From Actinotignum schaalii (GTDB lineage Bacteria; Actinomycetota; Actinomycetes; Actinomycetales; Actinomycetaceae): a DNA stretch of 64,000 nucleotides. Below, in pieces: positions 27,941-38,760 of this stretch. Under the pieces are notes generated by a model. That model ran no database searches and had not been told where the DNA came from. It worked only from the letters and a program-made list of their open reading frames with translations. Within the stretch, counting starts at the first letter, position 1; each line of letters begins with the position of its first letter. The translations under genes and the position numbers were made by a program. The stretch is taken from NCBI RefSeq assembly GCF_000724605.1, contig NZ_CP008802.1, positions 930,001 to 994,000 on the forward strand. Reading direction: 5' to 3'.

Positions 27941-28042
27941 ATCCCTCTCCGCCGCAGTCGCGATGATCCAGCACCTAGCCTAACAAGCTCCGCGGGCTCT
28001 CACGCGGAGCTACGCTGCTGCATGCCGCGAGTGCGGCGGGCG

Positions 28043-28082
28043 CCGCACCGACGTTCCCCACGTGCCACCGCACCGACGTTCC
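28043..28082. repeat. 15-bp direct repeat
   Basis: CCGCACCGACGTTCC occurs at 28043-28057 and 28068-28082, 25 bp apart start to start. It lies in the divergent gap 100-200 bp upstream of the bifunctional glycosyltransferase. Confidence 0.6.
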
Positions 28083-28192
28083 TCGCGCGCCGTGGCCGTT
28101 CTTCACCCGCCGCGGCATCGCTATACCTGTGCTTCCCCCCCTCCGCGGCACCGCCACGTCCTCGCCTCCCGCGTGCCGCGGGGCCGCTACAG

Positions 28193-28198
28193 TACAAT
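28193..28198 (+). promoter_or_regulatory. Candidate -10 element (TACAAT)
   Basis: TACAAT lies about 50 bp before the chosen GTG of the downstream glycosyltransferase. No good -35 was found, so this is a candidate only. Confidence 0.35.
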
Positions 28199-28246
28199 TC
28201 AAAGAGCAGAAAGCCGATGCCGCCTCTTCAACCAAAGGATTCCGCC

Positions 28247-30298
28247 GTGACCACTATTTCTTCTTCCTCGGCCAAGGCCGCCCTCCGCTCCGCGCTCCGC
28301 CACGTTCCGGGTGCGGAAGCTGCCGGTCGCAAAGTGCTCCAGAAGGTTCACTACCGGGTGCCCTGCTCGGAGCGGCCTCTGGTATCCATCATTATTCCGG
28401 TGTACGGGCACTGGAAAGAAACATTTGCTTGCATCAAGGCACTGGCGGCAACCGCGGGGAATATTCCTTATGAAATCATCGCGGTGGATGATTGTTCGCC
28501 GGATTCCACCGGTAAGAAACTGGATCGCATTATCGGCTTGCGGGTTATTCATATGCCGAAAAATGGCGGCTTTATTCGGGCCTGCAATACCGGACTCCAG
28601 CATGCTCGCGGTGAGATCGTTATCTACCTTAATAATGACACCGAGGTCAGCCCCACCTGGCTTATTCCCATCGTGGAGCGCATGGAAGATCCCTCCATCG
28701 GGCTGGTAGGTGCTCGTTTGGTATATGCGGATGGCACGCTTCAAGAAGCCGGTGGCGTCGTTTTTGCCGACGGCGTTACGGAAAACTATGGCAACGGTAA
28801 TAATCCGGAAAATCACTCCTATACCTATTTCCGGGATGTGGATTATTGCTCCGGAGCCTGCTTGGCGGTGCGCAAGTCGATTCTTGATGAGCTAGGCGGC
28901 TTCGATGAGCGCTATATTCCCGCCTATTACGAGGATACCGATCTGGCGTTTGAAGTACGGCGCCTGGGCTACCGTACCGTTTACGAACCGCGCTCCCTTG
29001 TCATTCACCACGAAGGCGTCTCGAATGGAACAGATACCTCGCAGGGCACGAAGCGCTACCAGGTCATTAATAAGGCGAAATTCGCTCAGAAATGGGCAAA
29101 AGAATTAGCGTCACAGCCGCTGAGCCGCTATCAGGACCCGGACTTCGAAATGGAGCGTGCTGTTCATACCAAAAATGTTGTTATTGTGTGCGACGGCGCT
29201 GTTATTACCCCGGATCTGGATTCCGGCTCGGTGCGGATGGAACAGATTTTGCTGGAGCTGCTCCGGCTCGGATATCAACCGATCTTCATTCCACAAAATA
29301 AGGAACGTCCCGAACCTTATGTTGGAAATCTGACGAAACGTGGAATTCAGGTAGTCTACGACTCGTTCAATGAACACGGCCAAACTAATATCAGCGCCTA
29401 CGCTCTCACTATTTTGCTTCGTGGAAATGTACGCGGAGTGATCCTGTCCCGGGTCGGGGTGGCCGCAGCTGCCATCTTCCCGGTGACCCACGCACTTCCG
29501 GGCGTCCCCGTTATTTTTGACACGGTGGACCTGCACGGCACCCGCGAATTACGCGAAGCGAAACTCGCCGGTGATGATGCCCTTATCACCGCAGCGCATC
29601 AAACCAAGGAATTGGAGCTCGGTGTTATGCGGGCCAGCACCGCTACCCTGGTTGTTTCTTCCGAGGAAGCGAAGATGCTGCATACGGATCACCCCGAACT
29701 TCCGGTTTTTGTGGTGGGGAATGTGCACGTCCCGGTGGAGCACCCCGCGGGATTGAAAGGGCGGCGCAGCATTAGTTTTATTGGTTCTTTCGCCCATCCC
29801 CCGAACGCGGATGGCCTGCACTGGTATTTCACTGAGGTGCACCCGCTGGTCCGCGAGGAACTGGGCGATGTTGAGGTCAATGTGTACGGGAAGAACCCGC
29901 CGGAATCGCTGCGCGTTTTCGAGGGGAACGGTGTGAAGCTATGCGGCTACGCCGCTGATTTAGCCGATGTGTATAACCCGGCCCGGCTCTCTATCGCGCC
30001 GCTGCGCTACGGTGCCGGGGTGAAGGGGAAGGTTGGGGAATCTCTTTCCTGGGGCGTGCCTATTGTGACCACCGATATCGGTGCGGAAGGTATGGGCCTG
30101 GATAATCGCCAGACCGCGCTGATCGCCAATAGTCCGGAGGATTTCGCGCGGGCCATTGTGGACGGTATGCGTGATGATGAGCTGTGGGAGCGTCTCTCTA
30201 CGGCGGGTGAACGCCATATTCAGGAGATTATGGGGGTGCCCCGCCTCCACCAGGATCTCGCGACCGCCTTTGACTTTGCGGGGATCACGCGCGCCTGA
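28247..30298 (+). CDS. Bifunctional glycosyltransferase (GT2 N-terminal, GT4-like C-terminal)
   Basis: In this 683-residue protein a GT2 domain (about 45-290) shows VSIIIPVYGHW, VDDCSPDSTG, YLNNDTEVSPTW as metal site and PAYYEDTDLAFEVRRLGYR with the catalytic ED. A second domain (from about 330) is GT4-like: ISFIGSFAHPPNADGLHW, a GVKGKVGESLSWGVPIV loop and EGMGLDN. Such double enzymes usually build repeat units of rhamnan-type polymers. GTG 28247 is favoured because AAAGGA lies seven bases upstream; ATG 28217 is possible. A perfect hairpin after the stop separates it from the convergent membrane protein gene. Confidence 0.82.
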   Translation: MTTISSSSAKAALRSALRHVPGAEAAGRKVLQKVHYRVPCSERPLVSIIIPVYGHWKETFACIKALAATAGNIPYEIIAVDDCSPDSTGKKLDRIIGLRVIHMPKNGGFIRACNTGLQHARGEIVIYLNNDTEVSPTWLIPIVERMEDPSIGLVGARLVYADGTLQEAGGVVFADGVTENYGNGNNPENHSYTYFRDVDYCSGACLAVRKSILDELGGFDERYIPAYYEDTDLAFEVRRLGYRTVYEPRSLVIHHEGVSNGTDTSQGTKRYQVINKAKFAQKWAKELASQPLSRYQDPDFEMERAVHTKNVVIVCDGAVITPDLDSGSVRMEQILLELLRLGYQPIFIPQNKERPEPYVGNLTKRGIQVVYDSFNEHGQTNISAYALTILLRGNVRGVILSRVGVAAAAIFPVTHALPGVPVIFDTVDLHGTRELREAKLAGDDALITAAHQTKELELGVMRASTATLVVSSEEAKMLHTDHPELPVFVVGNVHVPVEHPAGLKGRRSISFIGSFAHPPNADGLHWYFTEVHPLVREELGDVEVNVYGKNPPESLRVFEGNGVKLCGYAADLADVYNPARLSIAPLRYGAGVKGKVGESLSWGVPIVTTDIGAEGMGLDNRQTALIANSPEDFARAIVDGMRDDELWERLSTAGERHIQEIMGVPRLHQDLATAFDFAGITRA

Positions 30299-30309: not shown

Positions 30310-30350
30310 GCGCACTGGCGCACTGGCCTGCTGCTAGTGCGCCAGTGCGC
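30310..30350. terminator. Bidirectional terminator hairpin
   Basis: GCGCACTGGCGCACT (30310-30324) pairs perfectly with AGTGCGCCAGTGCGC (30336-30350) around an 11-nt loop. It fills the gap between two convergent stop codons and its last base is part of the minus-strand stop. There is no U-tract. Confidence 0.8.
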
Positions 30351-32188
30351 TATTCCGCGAGCGTGACGATGGTGAAGTCCGCGTGCGGCTCTATCCGCAG
30401 GCGCGGGTCGGAAGCAATCTGCTCGCGTAGGGTCTGCGCTTCCGCGGCGAAAGCATCCGTGGATCCCTGTTCGATTCCCCAGCGGAAATCAAAATTCGGG
30501 ATGACCACTGCTTGCACCTGCCCGGTGTAGAGAACCTGCCACACCGAATGCCCGAAGTTCGCGTGTGAGCCGATCACGTCCTGCATTTCCGGAGTCCAGT
30601 TTTCCCGCGCCCGGGCCACATCTTTATCGCCGAAAGTGTTGTAGAGGACTAGGTCCGATTCGCTGGCAATCACCCCGGCCAGGAAATCATTACCGTCCGA
30701 GACCGGAGAACTGAAAGCCACCACGGCATCGTCCGGCAAGGCCGCATCAAGTTTTTCGGGAATCTCGCCGATAAGAGCCTCAAGATGGGTGGCCCGGTAG
30801 CTGGCGCCTACCGCCAAGCCCGCGAGGTTCGGGGCGGAAGCCAACACCGCCAGCGCCGCCAAGATTCCGCAGGCCACCCGCCGCCAGCTGCCTCGCGCTT
30901 CCCTGCGCACCAGCGCGCTCATACCGCTCGCGAGTGCCGCGAGCAGGGCCAGACGAACCACCAGCATCCAGCGGTAGATAGCCCGCATGAGATCAAGGCC
31001 GGGAAGTTCCTCGTAGAGCGGTGCCCACGGGAAAGTCCATAGGGCTTCCGAGCGGGGCATAAGATAGTCAGTCACCTGAATCGGTGGCGTCAAGGGACCG
31101 CGGATTTCCCACCATTTCAGGGAGGGGCCCAGGGCAATAACAAAGGCCACCAGGGCCACGCCCACCCACAGCAGCACGTAGCGGCGTGCCCCGCGTGCCC
31201 ACACCACCACACAAACAAGCAGCACTAGGGCAGTGATGCCGATGTAATTCCAGCGGACGTTGGTGCCGTCTCCCCACAGCAGATCCGCATCCAGCCCGAT
31301 TCCGAAAAGATCGGCCCACCACACGCTCGAGGTGGGGATAACCGTGGTGGCAATATCCACGCCCATGGAACGGAAGAAATCTTCGCTGGTACCCATACCG
31401 GCCAGGGCCCCACCGGCATTGCGGTAATAGACCACGAGCGCCACGGCGCTGGCCACCGCCATATAAACAAAGCCCAGACCGGCATCGGGCAGGCCGCTGC
31501 GCCCCCGCAGTAGCGGCAGCACAATAACCACCACTCCGGCGGTGAAGCCGAGCATGACGAAAGAATAACCGTCCAGGAAAACAGCCCAGGTGAGAACCCC
31601 GCACCAACCAGCCACAGCGAGAAGCCGGCGCCACCAGGGCGGCCGCAGCCAGAACCGCAGCAGCACCACGCCTACGTAGACGGTGGCGGGTAGGAGTAGC
31701 GCACCCCAGAAGGTGGTACCGAAATTCCCCATGCCGATAACGGAAGGGTTGATCATCCATACCGCGGCCGCTATCCCGGCGATCAGGCGGTGCGAGGTGA
31801 GCCAGAAGAACAGCCCGTACGCACCCACCAGTACCAGGAGGATCCAGATGAGGTACCACGCAGAGAGCGCGGCGGCGGCGTCGCCAGGAAAAATAAGCGC
31901 AAAGAAGGTGGCCGCGCGGCTAAAAATACCACCGTTGACCGTGGCGGTACCTTCCGGGAAACCGATGATCGGGCAGCGGCCTTCTTGCAGGTACAGGCGC
32001 GGGAACTCGGTTCCGCATTGGAGGCGCCCGAGGTCGGCCACCCAGGCGTGTACCGGGCCGATGGCCCACGCGTTCACGCCGTAGATAAAGGAGAGGGCGA
32101 TGGAGTAGAGGAGGGCGCCCAGGCCCGCGAAGCCGCGGGTGCGCCACCGCAGCGGCGCTCTGCGTGGGTGGGCTTCGATAACTGGCAC
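30350..32188 (-). CDS. Polytopic membrane protein of unknown function, GT-C-like architecture
   Basis: The 612-residue protein has about twelve hydrophobic segments in the first 450 residues. A soluble C-terminal part of about 150 residues follows (ATHLEALIGEIPEKLDAALPDDAVVAFSS and on). The many-helices-plus-exported-tail layout recalls YfhO/GT-C-type glycosyltransferases, but I do not recognise a specific family motif. The GTG start has GAGGGGAA upstream. It is the third gene after wzm and wzt on the same strand, so it is probably tied to the exported polysaccharide. Confidence 0.6.
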   Translation of the reverse strand: MPVIEAHPRRAPLRWRTRGFAGLGALLYSIALSFIYGVNAWAIGPVHAWVADLGRLQCGTEFPRLYLQEGRCPIIGFPEGTATVNGGIFSRAATFFALIFPGDAAAALSAWYLIWILLVLVGAYGLFFWLTSHRLIAGIAAAVWMINPSVIGMGNFGTTFWGALLLPATVYVGVVLLRFWLRPPWWRRLLAVAGWCGVLTWAVFLDGYSFVMLGFTAGVVVIVLPLLRGRSGLPDAGLGFVYMAVASAVALVVYYRNAGGALAGMGTSEDFFRSMGVDIATTVIPTSSVWWADLFGIGLDADLLWGDGTNVRWNYIGITALVLLVCVVVWARGARRYVLLWVGVALVAFVIALGPSLKWWEIRGPLTPPIQVTDYLMPRSEALWTFPWAPLYEELPGLDLMRAIYRWMLVVRLALLAALASGMSALVRREARGSWRRVACGILAALAVLASAPNLAGLAVGASYRATHLEALIGEIPEKLDAALPDDAVVAFSSPVSDGNDFLAGVIASESDLVLYNTFGDKDVARARENWTPEMQDVIGSHANFGHSVWQVLYTGQVQAVVIPNFDFRWGIEQGSTDAFAAEAQTLREQIASDPRLRIEPHADFTIVTLAE

Positions 32189-32242: not shown

Positions 32243-33493
32243 TTACTGCTCGGTTCGGCTCCCCGCCTCGATCTTAACATTGTGAACATAGACTTCGGGG
32301 AAGGTTTTGACGAATCCCGTGGTCATGCCATCGGATTTGGTGGTGAAGAGTGCAACGCTATTGCGCCGTTCGATTTCGATATCGGCACTGTCGAGAATCG
32401 CGAGATTGACGATGTAATCGCCTTCCCCGATATGCAGATCGGGGAGCACCACCATGATGGTGGCGTAGTCTTTTTCCACCGCGGGGAGGGGGAGCTGGAG
32501 GCGGCGGCTGGACATCCCGAAAACCGGGGTGTCCTCGTTCATGGTGGCGATTTCCACCACCACGCCGTAATCGTGCATGGGCTCGTGGGCCACCAGGTCG
32601 AAGGCAATGCGCATGGTATCACCGGAAATATGCACGAAAAGCCCGTCGTCGGAGGTACGCACGCCGTCCACAATCGCGGCGTTGTCAATACTGCACGGGT
32701 GGGTATCCACCGCGGTGAGCACTCCGCCGTTCTTTTCCGCGAGTTCGGCGAGCATTTGTTCCTGGTAGCCCTGGTGGAGGCGGGACATCGCATCGCGCAC
32801 ATCCCCCACCATAACCATGGCGCCTTTATCCAGAACGACGGCGCGATCGCACACCTCAATCACTTGCGCCGCGGAATGTGACACCAGAATAATGGAGCGC
32901 CCTTCGCGCTGGAATTGGCGAATTTTCTCCATGCATTTCTTCTGGAAAGGCTCATCACCCACCGCGAGCACTTCGTCCACGAGCAGAATATCCGGGTCGG
33001 AATGCACCGCCACCGCGAAAGCGAGGCGCACGTACATCCCGGAGGAATAGAACTTCACCTGGGTGTGGATGAAGTCCCGAATCCCGGAAAACTCGATGAT
33101 GGAATCAAGCTGGGCGTCGATCTCCGCTTCGGACAGGCCCAGAATGGAAGCATTGAGGTAAATATTTTCCATGCCGGTGAGATCCGGGTGGAACCCGGCA
33201 CCCAATTCGAGGAGCGCGGCCATGCGCCCGCGGGTGCGCACCTGCCCGGCATCGGGGGTGAGGATCCCACCGATCACTTTGAGGAGGGTGGATTTACCCG
33301 AACCGTTCGCCCCCACCAGGCCCACCGATTCCCCGGCGGCCACGTTGAAGGACACGTTTTTGAGCGCCCAGTATTCTTCCGCGTGGGTGCGCGAACGTGC
33401 AGCATTGACCAGGCGTTCCTTGAGGGATTTATCTTTGTGGACGATGAATTTCTTCGAAACTCCATCAACTTGAATGACGTCGGGACGTGACAT
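32243..33493 (-). CDS. wzt: Polysaccharide ABC exporter, ATP-binding subunit with Wzt C-terminal domain
   Basis: The 416-residue protein has an ATPase domain (about 1-250) with Walker A GANGSGKST (61-69), signature YSSGMYVRL (149-157) and Walker B ILLVDEVLAVGD (169-180). The C-terminal 160 residues form a beta-rich domain like Wzt-C, which in O-antigen exporters recognises the modified end of the polymer. Homologues export teichoic acid or O-antigen-type polymers. It lies 24 bp after the permease gene in one operon. Confidence 0.9.
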   Translation of the reverse strand: MSRPDVIQVDGVSKKFIVHKDKSLKERLVNAARSRTHAEEYWALKNVSFNVAAGESVGLVGANGSGKSTLLKVIGGILTPDAGQVRTRGRMAALLELGAGFHPDLTGMENIYLNASILGLSEAEIDAQLDSIIEFSGIRDFIHTQVKFYSSGMYVRLAFAVAVHSDPDILLVDEVLAVGDEPFQKKCMEKIRQFQREGRSIILVSHSAAQVIEVCDRAVVLDKGAMVMVGDVRDAMSRLHQGYQEQMLAELAEKNGGVLTAVDTHPCSIDNAAIVDGVRTSDDGLFVHISGDTMRIAFDLVAHEPMHDYGVVVEIATMNEDTPVFGMSSRRLQLPLPAVEKDYATIMVVLPDLHIGEGDYIVNLAILDSADIEIERRNSVALFTTKSDGMTTGFVKTFPEVYVHNVKIEAGSRTEQ

Positions 33494-33517: not shown

Positions 33518-34444
33518 TTAGAGTTCCTGCGCGAAATTGCGTTGCATGCGAGCGAAGTAGCGCTGCGCGAGCCAGAGAAGCACCAGCCCGATAATGAGGA
33601 AGATTCCCAGGCGGGTGAGGAGATGGGAGGGCAGCAAGGCATCCTGCCCGGCCGCCCAGAAGGAATGCTGGAAGCCCATAACCGCCACCGAGGTGGGGTT
33701 GAGGAGGTAGAGGTTAATCATCCAGCTGGGGGCCGCCCCGGCGATCATCGCGAAAGAGTAAACGGAGGGGGTGAGCCAGAATCCGATGAGGAGAATGACC
33801 TCCACAAGGTATTGCACATCCCGCAGATAAACATTCGCGGCGGAAAGGAACAGCCCGAAGGCCACCGCCCATACCACCACCACGGCCAGGGAGATGGGGA
33901 AGTAGATGAGGGCGCTCCCCCACGGCACCCCCCGAATAATGAGGGCCCCGCAGACCAAAATGGCCAGCTGGGAGAGGAAGTCCACAAAAGCCGCACCGGC
34001 CGCGGACAGCGGGAAGATTTCACGCGGGAGATAGACCTTCTTGACGATCCCGGAATTACTCACGATCGCCCCGGTGGATGCCGCCACGATCTGGGAGAAA
34101 AGCCCCCAGGCGGTCAGCCCCGCAAAAACATAGATAGCGAAATCGGGGATGGCGCGTTCGGCGCCCAGCACTTTACCGATGGCGAAGTAGTAGATGAGCA
34201 GGTTGATGAGGGGCCGCACCAGGGTCCAGACATACCCAAGCACCGAATCCTTGTAGCGTGCCTTGAGCTCGCGCCGGGTGAGCAGGCCCAGAAGGTGGCG
34301 ATGGTCGAAAATATCGCGGACGGAAGCCCGCCAGCCGCTCAAGAACCCGGTGTCAATAGCCACGCGCGTGAGATCCTGGCTGGCGAGTTTCTCGAATCGT
34401 GCTTCTGCTTCGGGGCTCACCTCGCGTTCGCGCTCTGCTGCCAT
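33518..34444 (-). CDS. wzm: Polysaccharide ABC exporter, permease subunit
   Basis: The 308-residue ABC-2-type permease has a roughly 60-residue charged N-terminus and six membrane segments. RRELKARYKDSVLGYVWTLV before the first helix is the classic Wzm/TagG motif. The chosen ATG (34442-34444) has AGGAAAGG upstream; the frame is open to 34636 but that part lacks family similarity. It pairs with Wzt to export a lipid-linked polysaccharide made in the cytoplasm. Confidence 0.9.
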   Translation of the reverse strand: MAAEREREVSPEAEARFEKLASQDLTRVAIDTGFLSGWRASVRDIFDHRHLLGLLTRRELKARYKDSVLGYVWTLVRPLINLLIYYFAIGKVLGAERAIPDFAIYVFAGLTAWGLFSQIVAASTGAIVSNSGIVKKVYLPREIFPLSAAGAAFVDFLSQLAILVCGALIIRGVPWGSALIYFPISLAVVVVWAVAFGLFLSAANVYLRDVQYLVEVILLIGFWLTPSVYSFAMIAGAAPSWMINLYLLNPTSVAVMGFQHSFWAAGQDALLPSHLLTRLGIFLIIGLVLLWLAQRYFARMQRNFAQEL

Positions 34445-34735
34445 ACCCGACCTTTCCTGCCGGCATCCGCGCCTTTCGCTACCCATCCGGGTGAGCCGCG
34501 CGTATGCACCTATCTGTCTCATATTACCCAGGTAGGAGCCCTCCACGGCGAAACCCACACCTGCGCCGAGCAGCGCGCCGGGCCGTACGCTCCCGTACAT
34601 GAAGCCGCGCGCACAGCCGCGCACCGTCAGCGCCACCTTGCATCGCCTTGTACGATAGAGAAAGTAAGTTTCACCCGGGAGCCGCCGCGGCTACGCGAGC
34701 CGCGCTTGCCGCCCCGCGGAGGATGATAGGCAGTC

Positions 34736-36316
34736 ATGAGTGTTTGTGTTCTTGTTCCCGCCGGAGCCGGACCCGCTTTAGCGCGGGCTCTCCCCTACCG
34801 TGTTGCGGAGCTCATTCCGGGCCAGCCCGCCCCGCGCGCGGATCTCGCGGCGGGAGAAACGATCACCGCGGTGGTGACCGCTCCCGGTGCTGTCACGAAA
34901 ACTGCCCTCGCGCAGCTCCTGGCCAGCCCGGAGCGCAATACCGCGTGGTGCGCGGCCGCGGATTCTTCACCGCAACCACACGCGGATACCACCGTGAACG
35001 CCAGCGCGCATGGTGCCGCGAGCGCGCCGGAAACCCCCGCGTCCCGAAATGTCCTCGCGGTTCCCGCCCCGGTCTACACTTTCGATTCGCGGGCGCTCCA
35101 CCTGTGCGGCGGCCTCGATACCGCCTTCTCGCTTCCGGCCCTGGCCGTGGATGCCCAGTGGCGCCTCACCGCCGCCGGAGTACCAGGTGAGCAGCGCACC
35201 ACCGCGCTCCTCGAAGCCGGCACCCCCGATCTGGATACCGCCGATTACCTGCGTATCCTCACGAAGAACCTTTCCCCGGCCTACCAGCTGGAATTCCTCG
35301 CCCCGCTGTTCACCGCGCTGATCGATCACCCGATCCGCAGCTCCGGGGTGGATACCGCGGCCCTGGATCTTGCCCGCCGCCCCGGGAACGACGACGTCCC
35401 CTCCCTCCTGGTCCCCTCCACCACCTTCAGCGGTGCCCAGGTGATACGCGACTGGAGCGCTTCCCTGGCCGGCCTGGAAGACCGGCACGCCGCGGCCACC
35501 GCCGCCGCCCGCATCCCGGACCGCCACCTGCCCCACCTGGCCGATTTCCTAGACCGAGTCTGGACCAGCGCCGGTATTCCCGCCGCCGAACGGGATTTCC
35601 TGGAAACCGCTTTCGCTGATGTGCGCCGCGATGATGAGCCGAGTATCGCTTTCGCGGTGGCGGCTTCCGATACCGCGGCCCGCGCCCGGTTCAACCAGAT
35701 CGCTGCCGCGCTTTCCGAGTCGCTCTACCTGTGGGATCCGGAAAGCAAAGAGCTGAGCGAGCGCAGCGCCGATCCCACCGCACCGTTCCGAGCGGCGCGC
35801 CGCGATATGGCCAGCGCCGTCGAAACAATTGCCGTGACCTATATTCTCAATCTCCCGGCCCGTGCCGTTCCGTGGAGCGCAACCCACGGGGTGGTCATTG
35901 CCGATGTCACCACCGCGAATCTCACCGCGATGGTCCGCACCGATTGGGTGGGGGTGACCGGCACGGAAAGTGTGGGCGCGAACGCCAGCGTACTCAACGA
36001 AACGCTTAGCGTTGCGGATCGCGTGATTACCGCGGATACTGCCCAGCGTGATTTTGTGCTCGGGGCCCTGTCCGGGAACTATCGTTTGGATCAGAATACG
36101 TACGACGACGATCACTCTCTCACCAGCCTCGTCGCCCAGGAAAACGGCGGTATTGCAGCGGCCCTCGCCGCGCTACACTCCCCCATCCACGCCTATGAGC
36201 GGGTGGAAACCACCCAGCTTTACGAGGAGCCCGGCAAGCCCGGTGCCCGCAAGCATCCCCACCTGCGCCGTGCGCTGCGCGGCCTGGCCAGCACTCTCAA
36301 GGGAGAACGCAAGTGA
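34736..36316 (+). CDS. Degenerate glycosyltransferase-like protein, coupled to the next gene
   Basis: The 526-residue product has no intact catalytic motif but aligns by eye with the downstream enzyme. CGGLDTAFSLPALAVDAQWR sits where GGFDDRYFMFYEDADFGWR lies in the partner, with the catalytic ED lost. LTKNLSPAYQLEFLAPLF matches LYKNLGDDLLRTVFAPAL. VLNETLSVADRVITADTAQR matches VLNRQLARADKFLCASDKQR. It ends soon after that point, so the donor-binding domain (about 270 residues) is missing. The N-terminal DxD region is also replaced. The stop overlaps the next GTG (GTGA), implying coupled, near equal expression. A pseudo-enzyme or scaffold role is inference. Confidence 0.65.
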   Translation: MSVCVLVPAGAGPALARALPYRVAELIPGQPAPRADLAAGETITAVVTAPGAVTKTALAQLLASPERNTAWCAAADSSPQPHADTTVNASAHGAASAPETPASRNVLAVPAPVYTFDSRALHLCGGLDTAFSLPALAVDAQWRLTAAGVPGEQRTTALLEAGTPDLDTADYLRILTKNLSPAYQLEFLAPLFTALIDHPIRSSGVDTAALDLARRPGNDDVPSLLVPSTTFSGAQVIRDWSASLAGLEDRHAAATAAARIPDRHLPHLADFLDRVWTSAGIPAAERDFLETAFADVRRDDEPSIAFAVAASDTAARARFNQIAAALSESLYLWDPESKELSERSADPTAPFRAARRDMASAVETIAVTYILNLPARAVPWSATHGVVIADVTTANLTAMVRTDWVGVTGTESVGANASVLNETLSVADRVITADTAQRDFVLGALSGNYRLDQNTYDDDHSLTSLVAQENGGIAAALAALHSPIHAYERVETTQLYEEPGKPGARKHPHLRRALRGLASTLKGERK

Positions 36317-38760
36317 CCTCTGTTTCCGTTATTCTTGTCAATTTCCGCGGGGCGGAAGATACGATTGCCGCCGCGCACTACCTGCGTGAATGTGATTGGC
36401 CCGCGCAGGATCTGGAGATCGTCGTCGTCGATAATAATTCCGGGGATGGTTCGTTCGAGCGCCTGCGCGCCGAACTACCCGACTGTCAGGTACTGCAATC
36501 GGGCGCCAACCTGGGCTTCACCGGGGGCTGCAACTTCGGAGTGGAGCATTCGCGCGGAGATATTGTGGCGTTCCTCAATAATGATGCCCGGCCCGGAAAG
36601 CAGTGGATTCGCGCCGCGGTGGAAGCGATTGAGGCAGACCCGAAGGTGGGCTGCGTGGCTTCCAAGGTGCTCACCTGGGAAGGCGACAGAATCGATTTCG
36701 TCGATTCCTCGATGACGTGGTTCGGGATGGGCTACAAGCGCGAGGCAGAACGGGAAGATACCGGCGCCTGGGATACCCCGAAGAATGTGCTCTTCCCCAC
36801 CGGGGCCGCCATGTTCGTGCCGCGCCGTGTTTTCGAGGAACTGGGCGGGTTCGATGACCGCTACTTCATGTTCTACGAGGATGCCGATTTCGGCTGGCGT
36901 GCTAACCTTGCCGGATACGATGTGCGCTACGTGCCTGAATCGGTGGCCTACCACCGCCACCACGTCACCATGAAGAAGTTCGGGAATTTCCGGGAAACGT
37001 ATTTCCTGGAACGCAATGCGCTGGCCTGCCTGTACAAGAATCTCGGCGATGACCTGCTCCGCACGGTTTTCGCTCCAGCCCTCGCTTTCGCCGTGGAGCG
37101 CAGCGCGGAACGCAGCGAAGTGGAGGAGCGCCGCGGCCCGGATTCCTACCGTGCCGCGCAAGGCACCATCACGAAAATGGCGGCCACCGCCCCTTACGCG
37201 GTGTCGTATTTCCGCGATATTTTGCCCTCCCTCGTGGAATCACGCCGGGAGATCCAGGCCGGGCGCAAGAAATCCGATGCGGAGATTATTACCCTCATGC
37301 GTAATGCCATGGAGCCGGCCTATCCGCTGCCGCGCTACCTGGACCTCCACGAGGCACTGGCGCGGTTCTTCGGCATCGCGAAGCGTTTTTCCGGGCAGGC
37401 GAAGGTGTTGGTGGTGACCGGTGAACCCATCGGGGAAAAAATGGCCGGACCGGCTATCCGGGCCTGGGAGATGTGCACCCGCCTGGCGCTCGAACACCCG
37501 GTGCGGCTGTGTTCCACGGCCGGTGTTGGCAAGGTAGCCCCTCAAGCTTTTGAGATCCACAATGGCGATACCGATACCCTGCGCGCCTGCACCGATTGGG
37601 CGGACGTCATTATTTTCCAGGGCTTCCTGCTGGAAAGCGCCCCGTGGCTCATGAGCTCGGAAAAGATCATCGTGGCCGATATTTACGATCCCATGCACCT
37701 CGAGCAGCTCGAGCAGGCCCGCGATCAGGGCCCGGAGGGCCGCGAACGCTCCATTACCGGGGTGACCGGGGTGCTCAACCGGCAGCTGGCCCGCGCCGAT
37801 AAATTCCTGTGTGCCTCGGATAAGCAGCGCAATTTCTGGCTCGGGCAGCTGGCGAGCATGGGCCGGATCAACCGCAATGTCCTCCCCGATGGTGCGGATG
37901 TGCGCAGCCTCATCGATATTGCGCCCTTCGGCCTGGGCGAAGAAGCGCCCCGCCAAACCGAGCACGCCATCCGCGGGAAGGTTCCCGGCATCGGCATGGA
38001 TGACAAGGTGATCCTGTGGGGCGGCGGGGTCTATAACTGGTTCGACCCGCTCTCCCTCATCCGCGCGGTCGCCCAGCTTTCCCGCACCCACCCGGATGTG
38101 CGCCTCTACTTCCTGGGGATGAAACACCCGAATCCGGGGGTGCCGGCCATGCGGGTCGCCTCCGAGGCGGTGGCCCTGGCCGACGAGCTGGAGCTCACCA
38201 ACCGCTTTGTATTCTTCAACCACGACTGGGTTCCCTACCACGAACGCCAGAACTACCTGCTGGACGCAAACGTGGGGGTCTCCACCCATTTCGAGCACGT
38301 GGAAACCCAGTTCTCCTTCCGCACCCGCATCCTCGACTACCTGTGGGCGGGCCTGCCGATCGTGGCGACCAGCGGGGATTCCTTCGGGAACGCCCTCGAT
38401 AGCGAAGGCATCGGCATCTCGGTACCTCCGCGCGATGTGGAGGCCCTGGCCGCCGCGCTCGAAACACTGTTATACGACGACGCCGCAGCGGCCCGCGCGC
38501 GTGCGAATATTGCCGGTTTCGCCCAGCAGTTCCACTGGGATCGGGCGCTGGCCCCGCTGCTGGAGTTCTGCCGGCACCCGCGCCGGGCCGCGGATCTGGC
38601 TTTCCGCGCCGGCGACGATGTGCCGGGAACCATGCTCGGCTTTATCGATCCCGGTTTCAACCCGGTGCGCGATCTCAAACTCGTGGTGGATTACCTGCGC
38701 ACCGGCGGCCCGAAGGTGCTGGCCTCCAAGGTGAAGTCCCGGCTGCGCAAGTACATCTAG
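36313..38760 (+). CDS. Bifunctional glycosyltransferase (GT2 plus GT4-like)
   Basis: The 815-residue protein has an N-terminal GT2 domain (about 1-270): VSVILVNFRGAEDTI, VVVDNNSGDGS, FLNNDARPGKQW as metal site and MFYEDADFGWRANLAGY with the catalytic ED. After a helical linker (about 270-350) a GT4-like half begins, VLVVTGEPIGEKMAGPAIRA, with donor domain KVILWGGGVYNWFDPLSLIR and FSFRTRILDYLWAGLPIVA. This fits rhamnosyl/galactofuranosyl-type polymerising enzymes of surface glycans. The GTG start overlaps the stop of the degenerate paralogue upstream. Confidence 0.85.
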   Translation: MTSVSVILVNFRGAEDTIAAAHYLRECDWPAQDLEIVVVDNNSGDGSFERLRAELPDCQVLQSGANLGFTGGCNFGVEHSRGDIVAFLNNDARPGKQWIRAAVEAIEADPKVGCVASKVLTWEGDRIDFVDSSMTWFGMGYKREAEREDTGAWDTPKNVLFPTGAAMFVPRRVFEELGGFDDRYFMFYEDADFGWRANLAGYDVRYVPESVAYHRHHVTMKKFGNFRETYFLERNALACLYKNLGDDLLRTVFAPALAFAVERSAERSEVEERRGPDSYRAAQGTITKMAATAPYAVSYFRDILPSLVESRREIQAGRKKSDAEIITLMRNAMEPAYPLPRYLDLHEALARFFGIAKRFSGQAKVLVVTGEPIGEKMAGPAIRAWEMCTRLALEHPVRLCSTAGVGKVAPQAFEIHNGDTDTLRACTDWADVIIFQGFLLESAPWLMSSEKIIVADIYDPMHLEQLEQARDQGPEGRERSITGVTGVLNRQLARADKFLCASDKQRNFWLGQLASMGRINRNVLPDGADVRSLIDIAPFGLGEEAPRQTEHAIRGKVPGIGMDDKVILWGGGVYNWFDPLSLIRAVAQLSRTHPDVRLYFLGMKHPNPGVPAMRVASEAVALADELELTNRFVFFNHDWVPYHERQNYLLDANVGVSTHFEHVETQFSFRTRILDYLWAGLPIVATSGDSFGNALDSEGIGISVPPRDVEALAAALETLLYDDAAAARARANIAGFAQQFHWDRALAPLLEFCRHPRRAADLAFRAGDDVPGTMLGFIDPGFNPVRDLKLVVDYLRTGGPKVLASKVKSRLRKYI

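Follow-up and report, generated by a model that had tools for sequence, protein, structure and literature searches.

A conserved degenerate glycosyltransferase paralogue as the probable non-catalytic partner of a GT2-GT4 enzyme in actinobacteria

Some actinobacteria keep a crippled twin directly before a working two-part sugar-transferring enzyme. In the 64,000-nucleotide stretch of Actinotignum schaalii DNA analysed here (the window), this twin, which we call P1, is encoded immediately ahead of an intact GT2-linker-GT4 enzyme, P2, and we consider P1 to be probably the non-catalytic subunit of a two-protein glycosyltransferase that arose by tandem duplication and reciprocal loss. In the undivided single relatives of the two proteins, as aligned here, catalytic residues and a YDxD loop occur together, and of these P2 keeps the catalysis and P1 keeps the loop. 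What the sequences themselves show is the homology, the losses, the selection, the co-occurrence, the synteny and the partition of motifs; a homomeric ancestor, the binding of P1 to P2, the roles of the loops and the identity of the polymer are what we infer. The features are as follows.

32243..33493, minus strand: Wzt-type exporter ATPase (PF00005; Wzt_C at 28.3 bits, below the cut-off of 30.4)
33518..34636, minus strand: Wzm-type ABC-2 exporter permease, divergent from P1 (PF01061 match; synteny)
34736..36316, plus strand: P1, non-catalytic degenerate GT2-linker-GT4N protein, 526 aa (homology, profile search, predicted fold, dN/dS)
34877..34885, plus strand: P1 residues 48-50 (TAP), site of the lost NND (DxD-type) motif of P2 (alignment of 112 sequences)
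34961..35050, plus strand: P1 residues 76-105, disordered A/S/T-rich loop with a 19-aa expansion (congener comparison, pLDDT)
35363..35395, plus strand: P1 residues 210-220 (LDLARRPGNDD), linker loop, common to many single proteins and gone from P2 (alignment)
35633..36190, plus strand: P1 residues 300-485, GT-B (GT4-type) N-terminal acceptor-side Rossmann domain
36101..36112, plus strand: P1 residues 456-459 (YDDD), YDxD loop, kept in P1 and single proteins and lost in P2 (alignment)
36257..36310, plus strand: P1 residues 508-525, C-terminal basic helix, counterpart of the P2 tail (predicted structure and alignment)
36313..36316, plus strand: GTGA overlap of the P2 start and the P1 stop
36313..38760, plus strand: P2, intact GT2-linker-GT4 enzyme, 815 aa (profile search, predicted fold)

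P1 is a degenerate paralogue of P2

Direct comparison of P1 with P2 by BLASTP gave 30% identity over 91 aa (E = 1e-7), and hhalign with family profiles matched P1 103-471 to P2 156-538 over 354 columns (probability 99.5%, E = 3.8e-23), which confirms an earlier proposal that P1 is a degenerate paralogue of the GT2-GT4 enzyme encoded by the next gene. P1 relatives from other genera (G044, G155 and G012) bridge the gap, matching P2 across 251 to 385 alignment columns, and the collinear homology spans the end of GT2, the linker and the GT4 N-domain. P1s such as that of L086 extend the alignment of the N-terminal stretch across the DxD region, where NND is replaced, and the P1 tail aligns with the P2 tail, so the GT4 donor domain was excised from within P1 and not from its end. 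According to the same proposal P1 lost its DxD and ED motifs as well as the donor domain of GT4; all three losses hold, and the C-terminal tail remains after the internal excision.

The predicted fold of P1 resembles GT-A and GT-B, in line with the structural similarity expected of such a paralogue: residues 300-485 are GT-B N-domain-like, and residues 1-295 are GT-A-like, less securely. In the monomer model pLDDT is below 50 at residues 76-100 and, in the single-chain prediction, from residue 513 onwards within the C-terminal helix (508-525), with block means of 57 at residues 211-220 and 44 at residues 451-460. The Pfam GT2 profile gave no match to P1 at E up to 1, and no PDB chain matched it in sequence at E <0.5.

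The gene pair is conserved and P1 is under purifying selection

We searched 213 genomes of the family for P1 (match at E<=0.001, at most six candidates scored per genome) and P2 (E<=1e-40, at most four). The P1 query matched in 22 genomes, 19 of which carry true P1 genes (G000-G004, G012, G018, G044, G059, G061-G064, G094, G098, G153, G155, G166 and G180); in G138 and G189 it hit the genome's own GT4 protein, and in G033 it found a marginal match elsewhere. P2 matched in 50 genomes, in 31 of them as the GT4 half only, and full-length or nearly full-length P2 occurs in exactly the 19 genomes with P1. At the chosen starts the two genes overlap by 4 nt in 12 of the 19, the window included, and are separated by a 1-2 nt gap in six, the junction of G155 being unclear; the GTGA overlap would likely couple the translation of P1 and P2. 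Wzm is divergent from P1 and lies within about 330 bp of it, or overlaps it in the called frames, in 17 of the 19 genomes, again including the window. The exceptions are G180, where Wzm is 2.4 kb away, and G166, where none was found within the stretch examined. A conserved coupled pair, as the sequence-only reading had anticipated, is thereby borne out by the 19/19 co-occurrence with P2, the conservation of the junction and the pairs outside the family that are described below.

Individual loci vary around this pattern. The pair of G166 (L075 7788-11739) is the most diverged, with altered GT2 motifs in P2 (NND to GRS, ED to DD) and intact residues at the GT4 positions checked, as if the GT2 half of this P2 were degenerating too. 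P2 of G180 (L066 10443-12743) has 766 aa and no C-terminal tail, and one TAA was counted inside the matched stretch. In the sixth Actinotignum species (G005) neither P1 nor P2 was matched; its Wzm (C2:286985-287896, L174) is 58% identical to that of the window and by eye adjoins a Wzt-like and a GT2-like gene, so the polymer locus of this species may have been replaced.

The P1 frame is open and free of internal stops in all 19 family genomes that carry it, so the stop codons that would have refuted the sequence-only reading did not appear in the family. In ten pairwise Nei-Gojobori comparisons among five Actinotignum genomes, dN/dS was 0.16-0.27 for P1 (mean 0.21) and 0.016-0.040 for P2 (mean 0.027). 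By segment, P1 ratios were 0.07-0.25 everywhere but residues 76-105, the sole part near neutral at 0.69, and the lowest value, 0.07, fell at residues 401-475, which include the YDxD loop. The low-complexity expansion of 19 aa, which gives a P1 of 526 aa here vs 507 aa in congeners, is absent from all four congeners with P1. Fifteen columns are invariant across the 19 P1 sequences at a mean identity of 35%, the polar ones including D211, R259, R318, D390, D428, R438, D439, Y456, D457 and D459.

P1 is a paralogue under purifying selection that, judged by its sequence, has lost catalysis, and the open frames, the ratios and the 15 invariant residues uphold the earlier view of a gene that is selected rather than decaying. 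A decaying duplicate, or a leader that does nothing beyond coupling the translation of P2, would fit the faster evolution of P1 (about 3.3 times the rate of P2), the 19-aa expansion and the 4-nt overlap; but we hold it to be very improbable, given the segment ratios, the absence of stops, the invariant core and the presence of P1 in two orders (by their labels). The rate of P1 also fits a loosely constrained accessory role.

Undivided relatives occur without P1

To survey relatives more widely we compared the GT2 part of P2 with one genome per species (84,980 species) and kept the best 80 of 386 loci. Among these 80 we found 17 P1-P2 pairs, 62 single full-length GT2-GT4 proteins with no P1-type neighbour (for one of them, L147, the sequence offers just 653 bases upstream, where a P1 could not be seen) and one broken single (L108), which was dropped before the counts, leaving the 62. 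Eleven of the pairs come from the genomes already known, and the other six are L084, L086, L090, L111, L125 and L157, several of them labelled Propionibacteriales or Propionibacteriaceae MAGs. The singles belong to Cellulomonas, Cellulosimicrobium, Sanguibacter, Curtobacterium, Blastococcus, Lentzea, Saccharothrix and others. When 27 whole genomes with singles were searched with the P1 profile, no separate P1 was found in any, and the sole match in each was a frame of at least 831 aa, the single protein itself.

Wzm is divergent and within 1.5 kb before the gene for 11 of the 62 singles, on the same strand within 1.5 kb for seven, farther away (divergent) for 25 and not found in the stretch for 19; in those 11, the Wzm-side junction of the single gene is the place that P1 takes in pairs. 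This arrangement bears on a reading in which P1 is a free-standing adaptor that binds the acceptor, the lipid carrier or the exporter, its GT-B N-domain and basic tail handing the chain to Wzm/Wzt with no stable P2 complex. Such a role would agree with the retention of the acceptor-side domain and tail and with the divergent Wzm near P1 in 17 of the 19 family genomes. We judge it unlikely, since singles stand beside Wzm without P1 (11/62 divergent and 7/62 on the same strand, within 1.5 kb), so export as such needs no P1, and since the motifs that P1 retains belong to the enzyme itself.

Some of the surveyed loci call for comment. L084, labelled a Spirochaetia MAG, carries a pair whose P1 and P2 are 43% and 74-75% identical to those of the window, with Wzm/Wzt adjoining, and is probably a misbinned actinobacterial contig. 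The P1 open frame of L125 (6780-9944) extends back across a run of N into another coding stretch, which looks like an assembly gap and not a fusion. At L108 (9911-12456, Cellulosimicrobium sp. CUA-896) the single GT2-GT4 gene lies in two frames of 529 and 372 aa, split by a frameshift or sequencing error. Class-wide, the P1 profile also matched shorter frames of 520 and 593 aa at L169 (G265) and L166/L171 (G298), with one of 1234 aa in G298 as well; these are possibly independent partial GT2-GT4 proteins.

P1 and P2 retain reciprocal features of the single enzyme

We aligned 25 P1s, 25 P2s and 62 singles (112 sequences; counts below are given as P1/P2/singles). Residues of the YDxD loop are shared by P1s and singles: Y at position 456 of P1 in 25/0/62, D at 457 in 25/1/53 and D at 459 in 25/3/57. 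The catalytic positions, in P2 numbering, show the reverse: N89, D91, E189 and H216 are each conserved in 0/24/62 and D190 in 0/25/62, the lone P2 exception at the 24/25 positions being that of G166 (B_G166), with a second exception at N90 (B_L157). In the P1 of the window TAP replaces NND and LA replaces ED. Some P1s are gapped at these sites (6/25 at D91 and 7/25 at E189-D190, one gapped row being a contig fragment), but the D of D91, the E of E189 and the D of D190 are each missing from all 25, so the search for relatives with an intact active site found none. Neighbouring P2-numbered residues persist in P1 (D192 in 21/25, R196 in 22/25). The donor domain is absent from 25/25 P1s, which are gapped at the positions checked within P2 570-686, and present in 62/62 singles and 24/25 P2s, the remaining one being a contig fragment.

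The linker loop follows the reciprocal pattern of YDxD, less cleanly. In singles and P1s an LDLQRSPGGDD-type loop can be recognised; P2 lacks it, with flanks on either side that can still be aligned. Its strict pattern is found in 17/25 P1s, 0/25 P2s and 36/62 singles, with divergent forms in singles of the Curtobacterium, Lentzea and Saccharothrix types; the corresponding figures for the YDxD pattern are 19/25, 1/25 and 62/62. Within the linker loop, D211 is D in 24/2/50 and E in 12 more singles, and L212 is L in 24/2/50 and I in 12 singles. All of these counts are of related sequences and not of events, and are not independent of one another because each loop's loss in P2 was probably one event at the base of P2. 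Among the 31 genomes with GT4-half matches, 11 of 11 relatives examined keep TYDxD, which makes it probable that the loop is ancient and that P2 lost it secondarily.

Column analysis gave a similar partition. With A_L090 and B_L111 left out, 156 columns of the shared region are at least 85% conserved in singles. At a threshold of at least 80%, both copies keep 14 of these, only P2 keeps 93, only P1 keeps 11, and neither keeps the remaining 38. Requiring at most 20% in the other copy leaves 51 columns for P2 and three for P1, and those three are the Y, D and D of the YDxD loop. That relatives without P1 hold the features of both halves in one protein is a point absent from the sequence-only reading.

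This partition also weighs on two further readings. If P1 had kept an enzymatic role through an altered active site, for example as a donor-independent transferase or one for a different sugar, its 15 invariant residues, several of them polar, might mark that site; most of the polar ones are already common in catalytic singles or P2, however, and P1 lacks equivalents of DxD and ED as well as the GT-B donor domain, so we give such an enzyme hardly any weight. Somewhat less improbable, and still decidedly unlikely, is a subunit that alters the specificity or product length of P2 and is not needed for activity. Pairs and singles are indeed different lineages with different neighbouring genes, but by itself this role leaves the loss of YDxD from P2 unexplained, when all 62 unpartnered enzymes keep the Y.

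Phylogeny of P1, P2 and the singles

A FastTree phylogeny of 108 sequences, from which the contig fragments A_L090, B_L090, A_L111 and B_L111 were left out, placed P1 in one clade (1.0) and P2 in one clade but for the divergent B_G166, which fell beside P1. In a second tree, built under a site-heterogeneous model from 51 of the 112 rows (G166, near-copies and other rows left out), P1 (support 100) and P2 (96) each formed one clade, with P2 among the singles. P1 is not the sister of P2 in either tree, which slightly weakens the explanation that we favour; forcing P1 and P2 into one clade lowers the likelihood by 1.6 and is not rejected (p-AU 0.468), the placement of P1 being unsure because of its long branches. 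Small numbers, besides these branches, limit what the tree can show. A single tandem duplication would be the simplest reading of these sequences. P1 and P2 have largely congruent inner branching, apart from the positions of G180 and G098 in the FastTree phylogeny, and the distances within P1 and P2 correlate (r=0.88, a value reached in 0 of 2000 permutations), as is expected from joint inheritance alone.

Discussion

We propose that the ancestor was a single GT2-linker-GT4 protein of the kind still present in Cellulomonas, Curtobacterium, Lentzea and others, that it was probably a homomer, and that a tandem duplication beside the genes of the Wzm/Wzt exporter would have produced two copies of it. 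P2 would have shed two loops, YDxD and the linker loop of the LDLQRSPGGDD type, and retained both catalytic sites. P1 would have retained these loops together with a GT-A-like shell, the GT-B domain of the acceptor side and the C-terminal tail, but neither catalytic site nor the donor domain of GT-B. P1 would now take the place of one protomer, bound to P2, and supply the functions of the loops and acceptor domain in trans, by holding the chain or lipid carrier or by allosteric activation, leaving P2 to do all sugar transfer for the polymer exported by Wzm/Wzt. The replacement of homomers by heteromers after duplication has been modelled (PMC11066126). In the GT4 rhamnosyltransferase WsaF, as described, binding of the growing chain is attributed to the N-domain and binding of the donor to the C-domain (PMC3898925), and by this precedent P1 would be an acceptor-side module without donor chemistry. 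Although conserved, the two loops that P1 retains have little order in the monomer model, suggesting that a partner orders them. A more specific version, in which P1 inserts the YDxD and LDLQRSPGGDD loops into the GT4 and linker region of P2 in trans, as a composite heteromer derived from a homodimer, is a tentative possibility; if it is true, the extant singles preserve the ancestral state, and a stepwise dissection from homomer to heteromer becomes possible in a bacterial polysaccharide synthase. The suggestion that P1 is a regulatory or scaffolding subunit of a glycosyltransferase complex thus gains from the reciprocal loss of motifs, which makes a subunit role likely, and the complex itself stays at the level of a proposal.

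Several known systems offer partial likenesses. AdoMetDC-prozyme and deoxyhypusine synthase of Trypanosoma are described as using dead paralogues as partners (PMC5201418, PMC3663545). P1 is like these prozymes in being a catalytically dead paralogue beside an active partner; the Trypanosoma systems are eukaryotic and, by those accounts, had complex formation and activation measured, whereas P1 and P2 are known from sequence and differ further by combining two GT modules, by the excision of a domain and by the coupling of their genes in bacteria. The Trypanosoma folds are not known to be related to those of P1 and P2. Gtf1-Gtf2 (GtfA-GtfB) is reported as a two-protein enzyme that starts the glycosylation of Fap1 (PMC5207161). 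It is likewise a bacterial glycosyltransferase formed by two proteins, as we propose for P1-P2, but by that account modifies a protein adhesin, whereas P1/P2 have GT2 and GT4 modules and sit by Wzm/Wzt. Its partner protein is degenerate.

Among the plant xylan glycosyltransferases IRX9 and IRX14, assigned to GT43 (PMC9874913), a putative glycosyltransferase is described as needed for polymer synthesis although the transferase activity of IRX9 itself is not required (PMC4132061). This matches our reading of P1, in that a putative glycosyltransferase is involved whose own transferase activity, in the case of IRX9, is dispensable, but in plant enzymes. To our knowledge no domain excision is known for IRX9/IRX14. 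Alg13-Alg14 is described as a split GT-B enzyme with the acceptor-side and donor-side halves on separate polypeptides (PMC10937113); there each half is single, whereas in the present pair P1 adds a spare acceptor half to a P2 that already has both. WsaF is reported to dimerize with the N-domain of one chain against the C-terminus of the other (PMC3898925), with one type of active subunit and, as described, no dead partner, unlike P1/P2.

Dead paralogues are common and the reason for keeping them is usually guesswork. Here living undivided relatives indicate which features each copy kept and point to specific residues to test, and P1 would be a subunit, overlooked so far, of the machinery by which actinobacteria build a glycan. 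A caution follows for biochemistry, as P2-type enzymes expressed alone may look inactive.

Other genes of the cluster

The presence of Wzm and Wzt genes in the cluster places it with ABC-transporter-dependent polysaccharide pathways. Between the exporter genes and another glycosyltransferase lies a 612-aa membrane-like protein (window 30350-32188), to which no Pfam family matched at E up to 1. The same cluster encodes a second GT2-GT4 protein of 758 aa (window 28022-30298), whose GT4 half differs, being like NCBIfam TIGR03087 at a score below the cut-off.
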